Shown: positions 13,870 through 17,096 of the stretch, in pieces | Position numbering within the stretch: the stretch's first letter is position 1 | Layout: each line of letters begins with the position of its first letter | Origin: Thermoanaerobacterales bacterium 50_218 | GTDB taxonomy: Bacteria; Bacillota; DSM-12270; Thermacetogeniales; Thermacetogeniaceae | Direction: 5' to 3' | Length of the DNA: 63,969 nucleotides | NCBI GenBank assembly: GCA_001508855.1 | Contig: LGFL01000005.1 | Coordinates: forward strand, 1-63,969 | Made by a program: the position numbers and the translations under genes | Notes under the pieces: model-generated | What the model was told of the DNA's origin: nothing | The model's database searches: none | The model's input: the letters and a program-made list of their open reading frames with translations, nothing else

Positions 13870-14241
13870 TTGCTCAATTATCGCGAGGTAGCCATTGAGG
13901 CAGCCCGCGCTGCTGTTGACAAAAAGGCAAACGATGTCATCGTTCTCGACCTGCGAGGTATTTTCCCGGTTGCTGATTATTTTGTGATCTGCAGTGGTAA
14001 CAGTGTACCCCAGTTGAAGGCGATCACCCGCGAAGTTGAAGAAAGATTGGCCGAGGCCGGTGTTTTCGGGAGGTGTGAAGGAACACCAGAGTCTGGTTGG
14101 GTCCTCCTTGATTTTGGGGATGTGATCGTTCACATCTTTAGTGAGGAGGCCAGGCGCTTTTATGCCCTCGAGCGTTTGTGGGGAGATGCCCCTGTGATTT
14201 TTGAAGGCATTTCTGAGATTAATCTTGACACTCACCAATAG
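13870..14241 (+). CDS. rsfS: Ribosomal silencing factor RsfS
   Basis: 123 residues from a TTG preceded by a GGGGGG-type site. Family motifs: D-V-I-V-L-D-L-R-G, A-D-Y-F-V-I-C-S-G-N-S, and G-W-V-L-L-D-F-G-D-V-I-V-H-I-F near residue 75. RsfS binds L14 and blocks subunit joining when nutrients are short. Its last codons overlap the promoter of the leuS leader. Confidence 0.95.
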   Translation: MLNYREVAIEAARAAVDKKANDVIVLDLRGIFPVADYFVICSGNSVPQLKAITREVEERLAEAGVFGRCEGTPESGWVLLDFGDVIVHIFSEEARRFYALERLWGDAPVIFEGISEINLDTHQ

Positions 14242-14253
14242 ATTTCGTATAAT
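14225..14253 (+). promoter_or_regulatory. Consensus sigma-A promoter for the T-box/tRNA/leuS unit
   Basis: TTGACA (14225-14230) and TATAAT (14248-14253) with a 17-base spacer: a perfect consensus match. It overlaps the 3' end of rsfS, and transcription should start near 14260. Confidence 0.9.
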
Positions 14254-14259
14254 GGGTGT

Positions 14260-14583
14260 GGTCTTAAAATGAGAACAAATGCAAGGAACGGGAGTATTAG
14301 GCCCTGGTGGCAGCCTTCAGAGAGCCGGTTTACGGGGTGCGAGCCGGTGGCCTGCCGGGGGCTGAACTCGCCCGGGAGCAGTGCCGATGATAAGTCGGTG
14401 CCGTTGAAAGGCGTTAACTTTCAGCAGAGTGGGTAAATACGGGGGGCTGTGGCGCAGTGGGAGCGCGCTTCCTTGGCATGGAAGAGGTCGCGGGTTCGAC
14501 TCCCGCCAGCTCCACCAGTTATTTACCAATCAGGGTGGTACCGCGGGAACAAACTCCCGTCCCTAAAAGGGACGGGAGTTTTT
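14260..14583 (+). promoter_or_regulatory. Leucine T-box leader of leuS, containing a tRNA gene
   Basis: Stem I is recognisable: AGTA on the 5' side of the specifier loop (~14291), the AGAGAGCCGG and GGTGCGAGCCGG distal elements, and GAA-CTC-G on the 3' side, giving a CUC leucine specifier consistent with leuS. After stem III-like helices comes GGTAAATA (14432-14439), which pairs with TATTTACC (14520-14527). The T-box itself is AGGGTGGTACCGCGG (14532-14546), with the UGGU that pairs with an ACCA tRNA end, followed by the terminator. A whole tRNA-Ala gene fills the loop of the 8-bp helix. A typical leader of this type would have a short loop there. Confidence 0.9.
14443..14517 (+). tRNA. tRNA-Ala(GGC) nested in the leuS T-box leader
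   Basis: 75 bases fold into a full cloverleaf: acceptor GGGGCTG/CAGCTCC, D stem GCGC/GCGC, anticodon stem CTTCC/GGAAG with loop TTGGCAT (anticodon GGC), variable loop AGGTC, T stem GCGGG/CCCGC with TTCGACT, discriminator A and an encoded CCA. The G3-U70 pair, the main alanine identity element, is present. It lies on the same strand as the leader, 4 bases inside an 8-bp helix, so it is transcribed as part of the leuS leader. Confidence 0.95.
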
Positions 14584-14606: not shown

Positions 14607-17096
14607 GTGGTGAGCAGGAAATACAACTTCCGTCTGGTCGAAAGAAAGTGGCAGGAAAGATGGGAAAAAGAAGAAGCATTTCGGGTAACTGAGAACCCCA
14701 GTCTCCCCAAGTTTTACTGTCTGGAGATGTTTCCGTATCCATCGGGGAACCTGCATATGGGGCATGTCCGCAACTACGCCATCGGTGATGTTGTTGCCCG
14801 CTTCTACAGGATGCAGGGCTACCAGGTCCTTCATCCAATGGGATGGGATGCCTTTGGACTTCCTGCGGAGAACGCCGCAATCAAGCACGGCATTCATCCA
14901 GCGAAGTGGACCTGGGACAACATCGACAACATGCGCCGACAGTTGAAATTGCTTGGCGTGAGCTATGACTGGTCGCGGGAAATTGCCACCTGTCACCCGG
15001 ATTACTACCGTTGGACGCAGTGGCTCTTTTTGCAGTTCTACAAGAATGGTCTTGCTTACAGGAAAAAAGCTGCGGTCAACTGGTGCCCGGCTTGCGCCAC
15101 GGTGCTGGCCAACGAGCAGGTAAAAGATGGTAAATGTGAGCGTTGTGGAACTGAGGTTACCAAGAAAGAACTCGAACAGTGGTTCTTTCGGATCACTGCT
15201 TATGCCGACCGTCTTCTGGAAGACCTCAAGAAACTCGAAGGTTGGCCGGAAAAGGTCAGAGTAATGCAAGAGAACTGGATCGGCAGAAGCGAAGGGGTAG
15301 AGATTAGGTTTAAGCTGGAGAACGGGAAAGATGTCCCTGTTTTCACTACCAGGCCTGACACGATTTACGGAGTCACTTACATTGTCCTCGCACCTGAGCA
15401 TCCCCTAGTGGAAGAACTTTTGCAGGGTAACCCAGATGCCCTCGAAATCAAGAAGTTCATCGAAAAGGTGCGCCTCCAGAGCGAAATTGTCAGGACTGCT
15501 GCCGAAGGAGAAAAAGAAGGGGTTTTCACTGGTGCCTATGCAATTAACCCCCTTAACGGTGACCGTGTTCCTGTCTGGATTGCCAACTACGTCCTGATGG
15601 AGTACGGAACAGGAGCGGTTATGGGAGTCCCTGCTCATGACCAGAGAGACCTTGAATTTGCCCGGAAGTATCGCCTCCCCGTGAAGGTAGTAATCCAGCC
15701 CTTCGGAGCAGAAATCGATCCGCAAACAATGGAAGAAGCTTACGTAGAACCAGGTTTGATGGTCAATTCCGGACCTTTTGACGGAATGGACAGTGAGGTT
15801 GCCAAACTGAAGATCACGGAGTTTATCGAAGAGAAAGGATACGGGCAGAGGAAAGTTAACTACCGTCTGCGTGACTGGCTGATCTCCCGGCAGCGCTACT
15901 GGGGAGCCCCGATTCCCATTGTTTATTGCGAGAAATGCGGGATTGTGCCAGTCCCAGAAAGTGAACTCCCGGTCCTTCTGCCACTCGATGTCGAGTTTAC
16001 CCCAACAGGGGAGTCACCTCTTTCGAAATGCGAATCCTTTACAAAAACGACCTGTCCTGTGTGCGGGGCACCAGCGCGGCGGGAAACTGATACCATGGAT
16101 ACCTTTGTCTGTTCGTCGTGGTATTTCTTGCGCTACTGCAGTCCTCACGAAACAGAAAAACCCTTTGATGAAGCCAAATTGCGCTACTGGATGCCTGTTG
16201 ACCAGTACATTGGAGGGGTAGAGCACGCCATTCTCCACCTGCTGTATGCCCGCTTTTTCACTAAAGTTCTTTATGATCTAGGTCTGGTGCCGGTTGATGA
16301 GCCTTTCAAGAATCTGCTTACACAGGGAATGGTTCTCAAAGACGGGGCAAAAATGTCCAAGTCATTGGGCAATGTCGTCAGTCCTGAAGAGATCATCGAA
16401 AACTATGGTGCTGATACTGCCCGACTCTTCATTCTCTTTGCTGCTCCTCCTGAGCGTGACCTCGACTGGAGCGACCAGGGTGTTGAGGGTTCTTTCCGCT
16501 TCCTTAACAGGGTCTGGCGCCTGGTGACTGGCCTTGCTCCCCAGGTTCAGGGTGTGGCCCAGTTTCCTCTGTCTCAGGATGCTCTCAACACCGAGGACCG
16601 TTCTTTGCGCTCTCTCATCCACAGAACGATTCAGAAGGTAACCGTCGACATTAAGGAACGCTTCAATTTCAATACTGCCATCAGCGCCATTATGGAACTC
16701 GTTAACGGGCTTTATCATTATTGTGAACATACTCCAGAAGGCAAGAGAAACAAACAAGTTTTGCGGGAAGGGGTGACCAACCTCCTGATTCTGCTCTCCC
16801 CCTTTGCACCTCACATCGCTTCAGAACTCTGGGAACAATTGGGTATGCCTGGTGATGTCCATGCTCAGAAGTGGCCGGAACCTGACCCGGAAGCTCTGGT
16901 TACTGAGAAGATTACCATTGTCGTCCAGGTGAACGGTCGTGTCCGCGACCGGGTGGAGGTTCCCGCAGGCATTGATCCCGAGGAAATGAAAAAGATCGCC
17001 CTTGCTCAGCCAAAGATCCAGGAGATGCTCAGTGGCAAAGAGCTGGTGAAGGTCATTTGTGTTCCTGAAAAACTGGTTAACCTTGTAGTCAGGTAA
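14607..17096 (+). CDS. leuS: Leucyl-tRNA synthetase
   Basis: 829 residues, GTG start just after the T-box terminator. Class I synthetase: H-M-G-H near residues 48-52, CP1 editing domain (T-T-R-P-D-T near residue 248, G-V-P-A-H-D-Q-R-D), K-M-S-K-S near residue 582, an anticodon-binding helical domain, and a C-terminal domain ([10 protein letters not shown]). Bacterial-type length. Charging of tRNA-Leu would be sensed through the CUC T-box leader upstream. Confidence 0.98.

Follow-up and report, generated by a model that had tools for sequence, protein, structure and literature searches.

The leuS leader of Thermoanaerobacterales bacterium 50_218 is confirmed as a leucine T-box riboswitch whose stem III loop is interrupted by an entire tRNA-Ala(GGC) gene, with leuS next. 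The locus lies in the window, that is, the whole analysed stretch of 63,969 nucleotides, and the same arrangement recurs in many Gram-positive bacteria across the phylum. One short RNA probably serves both as a leucine switch and as the precursor of a tRNA-Ala for which these genomes usually have no other gene. If so, the leader would be a riboswitch that doubles as a tRNA gene, and the attenuated leader, which goes to waste in an ordinary T-box, would have a use.

Anatomy of the leuS leader

The elements follow in the order rsfS, promoter, leader and leuS, with about 345 nt of leader between the promoter and leuS (Table 1). For this stretch, the original prediction had described a consensus promoter, a T-box stem I with a CUC specifier, an 8-bp helix, a full tRNA-Ala(GGC) with G3-U70 and encoded CCA, and a canonical antiterminator and terminator ahead of leuS, and each of these elements was borne out. 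The covariance search that it had proposed as a check matched the full T-box model RF00230 (model positions 1-219) at 14275-14567 with 113.3 bits, against a gathering score of 93 in Rfam, and the alignment places an 82-nt insert inside stem III. The predicted helix proved correct at every base and is the canonical stem III, with eight perfect base pairs. Within the insert, the tRNA model RF00005 matched 14443-14514 with 68.9 bits, and ARAGORN called tRNA-Ala(GGC) over the interval listed in Table 1, encoded CCA included. An antiterminator and a competing terminator with a T run are both present in the leader; the segment energy of the terminator hairpin is -26.8 kcal/mol (z -4.35).

According to the accessible part of a T-box review (PMC7583486), an RRRxG string, stem III and a following AA are marks of the T-box discriminator. 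The window has all three, with GAGUG as the purine string, as well as the UGGU bulge in the T-box sequence, and it combines a leucine specifier and a downstream leuS with a tRNA-Leu(GAG) in the same genome. Every sequence-defined feature of a T-box that we tested was present, and the locus is best described as a putative T-box riboswitch variant with a predicted leucine response. It resembles transcriptional T-boxes of the leuS subgroup (RF00230) in its leucine specifier, RRRxG-stem III-AA arrangement, T-box sequence, antiterminator/terminator pair and downstream leuS; unlike in those, the stem III loop here is a complete, functional-looking tRNA-Ala(GGC) gene. At such a locus, the T-box and tRNA annotations overlap.

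Table 1. Features of the leuS leader and its flanks, in window positions.
Feature	Position	Strand	Remarks
rsfS, upstream neighbour	13870-14241	+	PF02410; 3' end contains the -35 element
Sigma-A promoter	14225-14253	+	TTGACA 14225-14230, 17-nt spacer, TATAAT 14248-14253; overlaps the rsfS 3' end
T-box stem I	14281-14379	+	Rfam RF00230 alignment
Specifier CUC (leucine)	14367-14369	+	this genome encodes the cognate tRNA-Leu(GAG)
Linker hairpins (stem II region)	14380-14426	+	
RRRxG purine string GAGUG	14427-14431	+	5' of stem III
Stem III, 5' strand	14432-14439	+	GGUAAAUA
tRNA-Ala(GGC)	14443-14517	+	anticodon 14475-14477; G3-U70; CCA encoded
Stem III, 3' strand	14520-14527	+	UAUUUACC; conserved AA next, 14528-14529
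T-box sequence	14532-14546	+	AGGGUGGUACCGCGG; bulge UGGU 14536-14539, complementary to tRNA ACCA ends
Intrinsic terminator of the attenuator	14551-14583	+	hairpin 14551-14581 and T run
leuS, leucyl-tRNA synthetase	14607-17096	+	PF13603, 257 bits

Conservation of the nesting and of stem III

We searched a sample of 399 genomes of the phylum with a pattern comprising a tRNA T-arm, CCA and, 4-34 nt further on, a T-box sequence. Nesting was found in at least 82 genomes, many of whose loci lie on draft or metagenome-assembled contigs, from 27 families (by the listed family codes) and 52 genera; this count is a lower bound, as genomes G046 (locus L020) and G389 (L333) carry nested tRNAs with a variant T-box sequence. 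A reversed control pattern matched 1 of the same 399 genomes, and we rejected chance adjacency of the two elements on this contrast. In the window's own order, 17 of 20 genomes share the nested tRNA, and the arrangement occurs in all sampled members of families f16 (12/12), f22 (8/8), f11 (5/5) and f80 (5/5). ARAGORN assigned a type to 82 of the 84 distinct matching leaders, in each case tRNA-Ala(GGC); two were cut or uncalled. The Rfam T-box cut-off is exceeded at 40 nested loci, and loci below it can still be strong (81.2 bits in G040, 80.6 in G285 and 88.2 in G198). The nested element is also found on the public contigs CADDZD010000016.1 (L033) and CADDZA010000014.1 (L036). Nesting of tRNAs is not general among T-boxes: none of 66 other T-box loci from eight nested genomes contained a tRNA.

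The helix that closes the tRNA was assessed in 66 anchored loci (46 distinct), with AG[TCA]G as anchor of the 5' strand, and with the 3' strand placed by its fixed distance to the T-box sequence, so that pairing itself was not used. Stem III positions paired in 283 of 322 cases, compared with 224 +/- 5 after permutation of the 3' strands, a permutation that ignores relatedness and whose z of 11 is not readable as a probability. When the 5' strand was shifted by one or two bases, pairing fell to 39-55%, and G-C, A-U, U-A and C-G pairs are all seen at positions 1-3. The variety of pair types argues for a real, covarying helix around the tRNA. Native stem III duplexes were only moderately more favourable in energy than duplexes with mismatched partners, since many loci share GGUAAA/UUUACC; the anchored permutation was used instead. 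RRRxG occurs in 65 of the 66 anchored relatives, three of its five positions being fixed by the anchor itself, the AA 3' of stem III is kept in 78 of 82 relatives and the UGGU bulge in 81 of 82. The nested stem III has a median length of 7 bp, overlapping, by eye, with that of tRNA-less leuS T-boxes. At two loci (L173 in G110 and L174 in G072), it is unusually short at about 3-5 bp, suggestive of a nested copy that is relaxing; both genomes have a second tRNA-Ala(GGC) match.

The element within this helix looks like a functional tRNA-Ala gene. All 82 typed loci have G3-U70, and CCA is encoded in 77. Searching with a tRNA-Ala(GGC) pattern, we found the nested copy to be the sole match in 75 of the 82 nested genomes, with two matches in the other seven (G072, G110, G155, G211, G232, G343 and G353). 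The usually sole tRNA-Ala(GGC) gene is tied to a leucine attenuator in about one-fifth of the sampled genomes of the phylum. The window's genome follows this trend, with the nested copy as the one tRNA-Ala(GGC) among the 39 tRNA genes found; no tRNA-Ala(UGC) was found, probably owing to an incomplete assembly. Many other sampled genomes have tRNA-Ala(GGC) elsewhere, outside the leuS T-box. These data leave next to no room for the idea that the nested element is no working tRNA but a tRNA-like component of the switch, such as an alanine sensor or a timer. An element that sits at the tip of an essential helix, with an ACCA end complementary to the UGGU bulge, would suit such a role, but the invariant GGC anticodon and G3-U70 pair, together with the frequent sole-copy status, speak for a tRNA gene.

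A putative dual-output leader and its alternatives

Perfect TTGACA-17-TATAAT promoters precede 23 of 40 nested T-boxes, 14 of these 40 loci coming from the window's family, versus 3 of 40 other T-boxes from related genomes (promoter score, p 4e-7). A perfect promoter is also present at 4 of 10 tRNA-less leuS T-boxes, which are nearly as strong, and we set aside promoter strength as proof of a role in tRNA supply. In the 120 nt before the tRNA, promoter scores did not exceed background (median 6.8, shuffled 6.8). The T-box and tRNA-Ala of the window lie, as originally predicted, in one leader with apparently one promoter, and nothing promoter-like occurs between stem I and the tRNA. Two separate units, with the tRNA expressed from its own promoter and the T-box transcribed apart from it, are very unlikely; nothing points to them other than the fact that isolated tRNA genes exist, and the location of the tRNA within stem III interlocks both elements in one RNA.

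We consider it probable that the leader has two outputs from one promoter, acting as a leucine-responsive transcriptional T-box for leuS and as a tRNA-Ala(GGC) precursor whose supply is uncoupled from leucine. A single strong, near-consensus promoter would drive both elements, each initiation yielding stem I and then the tRNA. With charged tRNA-Leu, RNA polymerase would halt at the terminator of the T-box, leaving an attenuated RNA that is a tRNA-Ala precursor with its own terminator. With uncharged tRNA-Leu(GAG), the antiterminator would form and the polymerase continue, giving leuS mRNA plus tRNA. The tRNA lies 5' of the attenuator, and each initiation would therefore produce it regardless of the state of the switch; its supply would be independent of the leucine decision, while leuS would still be leucine-regulated. 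RNase P and 3' processing would excise the tRNA, mostly after the one-off terminator decision. In Staphylococcus aureus, normal turnover of T-box leaders can include a cut that separates stem I from the T-box sequence, as in the leuS leader, where RNase Y acts (PMC4608709); removal of the tRNA once the decision has fallen would thus not have to disturb regulation.

The observations bearing directly on this dual-output model are the anatomy, the conservation, the stem III covariation, the usual sole-copy status, the near-consensus promoter upstream of both elements and the survival of the promoter-tRNA-terminator unit after T-box loss described below. From these we infer a single transcript, a working leucine response, the timing of processing and a constant tRNA output. 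The suggestion in the original prediction that leucine starvation sets tRNA-Ala output is disfavoured, both by the location of the tRNA upstream of the attenuator and by that survival. Some points run counter to the model. The seven genomes with a second tRNA-Ala(GGC) match keep the nested copy, for which supply alone is an insufficient reason; tRNA-less leuS T-boxes have strong promoters, too; and a plain energy fold of the isolated stem III-tRNA segment favours a rod over the cloverleaf within the tRNA.

A leader of this build raises the question of how a sensor survives, or exploits, having a tRNA cut out of its middle. It is doubtful that the nested tRNA gates the leucine response of leuS, with RNase P and 3' processing racing antitermination and stem III clamping the T-box halves after excision; we infer that stem III could tether both halves once the tRNA has been removed. 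A functional competition of the kind raised in the original prediction, in which co-transcriptional RNase P or 3' processing would part stem I and the antiterminator ahead of the decision and lower leuS readthrough, with the length and stability of stem III tuning the race, also seems unlikely. It would be in line with the exact position of the tRNA between sensor and switch, the conserved and covarying stem III, the retention of the nested copy in the seven genomes with a second match and a trade-off between processing and expression that has been proposed for a tRNA-Sec nested in selB (PMC8124441). However, according to the accessible text of the review cited above (PMC7583486), ordinary T-boxes also conserve stem III, which belongs to their discriminator, so that its conservation calls for no race; its length overlap with tRNA-less leuS T-boxes points the same way, and such a race, though physically plausible, is not demanded by any sequence evidence.

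At three loci (L021:1341-1665, L306:1290-1460 and L307:1240-1435), the T-box is decayed or absent, whereas the promoter, tRNA-Ala(GGC), a terminator-like hairpin and leuS are kept. In L306 and L307, from two other families, no T-box lies between these elements, and L307 retains CUCGUCCCU, which is common in the terminators of T-boxes. Conversely, an ordinary stem III loop without tRNA, of variable length, is found in several leuS T-boxes. Each part is therefore separable, and the promoter-tRNA-terminator unit can outlive the switch, as expected if the terminator of the attenuator also ends the tRNA transcript. These loci bear on yet another explanation, namely that a tRNA entered an insert-tolerant stem III loop by accident and was kept as the usual sole tRNA-Ala(GGC), without benefit from the shared promoter and terminator. 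The variable loop, the persistence of the tRNA after T-box loss and the 75 single-copy genomes would all be compatible with it. We nevertheless regard it as quite improbable: nesting occurs in all sampled members of the four families named above although the tRNA is evidently detachable, being located elsewhere in many genomes, and the terminator is retained where the T-box decays.

In a LeuRS tree, L021 falls within a nested group and L306 beside the nested loci L215-L217. Nested and non-nested rows are scattered over this tree, with at least 14 changes, and many branches, including deep ones, are weak; losses, repeated gain and transfer are therefore not distinguishable in it. The recurrence of the same tRNA at the same site of the same riboswitch may suggest one old origin followed by losses.

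Precedents and downstream variation

A T-box with an internal tRNA, of which the original prediction had known no case, was not found described in the searchable literature, which omits most subscription papers and perhaps older T-box surveys. Insertions in T-box domains, stem III among them, are noted in the accessible part of the T-box review (PMC7583486), and neither there nor in the accessible part of the T-box database paper (PMC7778990) is a tRNA in stem III described. The closest relatives are of other kinds. The selB case (PMC8124441) likewise has a tRNA nested in a functional RNA, with the trade-off between processing and host expression mentioned above, but its host is a protein-coding frame and not a tRNA-sensing riboswitch; in the leuS leader, the tRNA lies upstream of the terminator and both outputs are possible. 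In the metY-nusA-infB operon of Escherichia coli, a tRNA gene is located in an mRNA leader upstream of terminators and excised by RNases (PMC6511841); unlike the nested tRNA, metY lies outside any riboswitch and is dispensable for growth. GOLLD RNA, in turn, is a large structured RNA containing a predicted tRNA gene (PMC6582537), but it is prophage-linked, of unknown function and has no role as a leuS leader; the Rfam search of the window gave no GOLLD match, the T-box and the tRNA being the sole matches.

Downstream of the nested leaders, a leuS motif follows directly in nearly all loci and one gene further on in three families. In the latter (L175-L179), leader and leuS are separated by an AMP-binding, acyl-CoA synthetase-like gene (PF00501), and leuS begins about 1.9-2.2 kb downstream; the PF00501 gene would thereby come under the leucine T-box. 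Two loci from different families carry group II introns of the D1-D4-3 type just after the T-box terminator and before the expected leuS (L004:1-1420 on the minus strand, with tandem copies, and L126:1695-1993), where leucine-induced readthrough would need to traverse and splice the intron. At L004, a c-di-GMP-I riboswitch (L004:2070-2157) is located a few hundred bases from the nested T-box.
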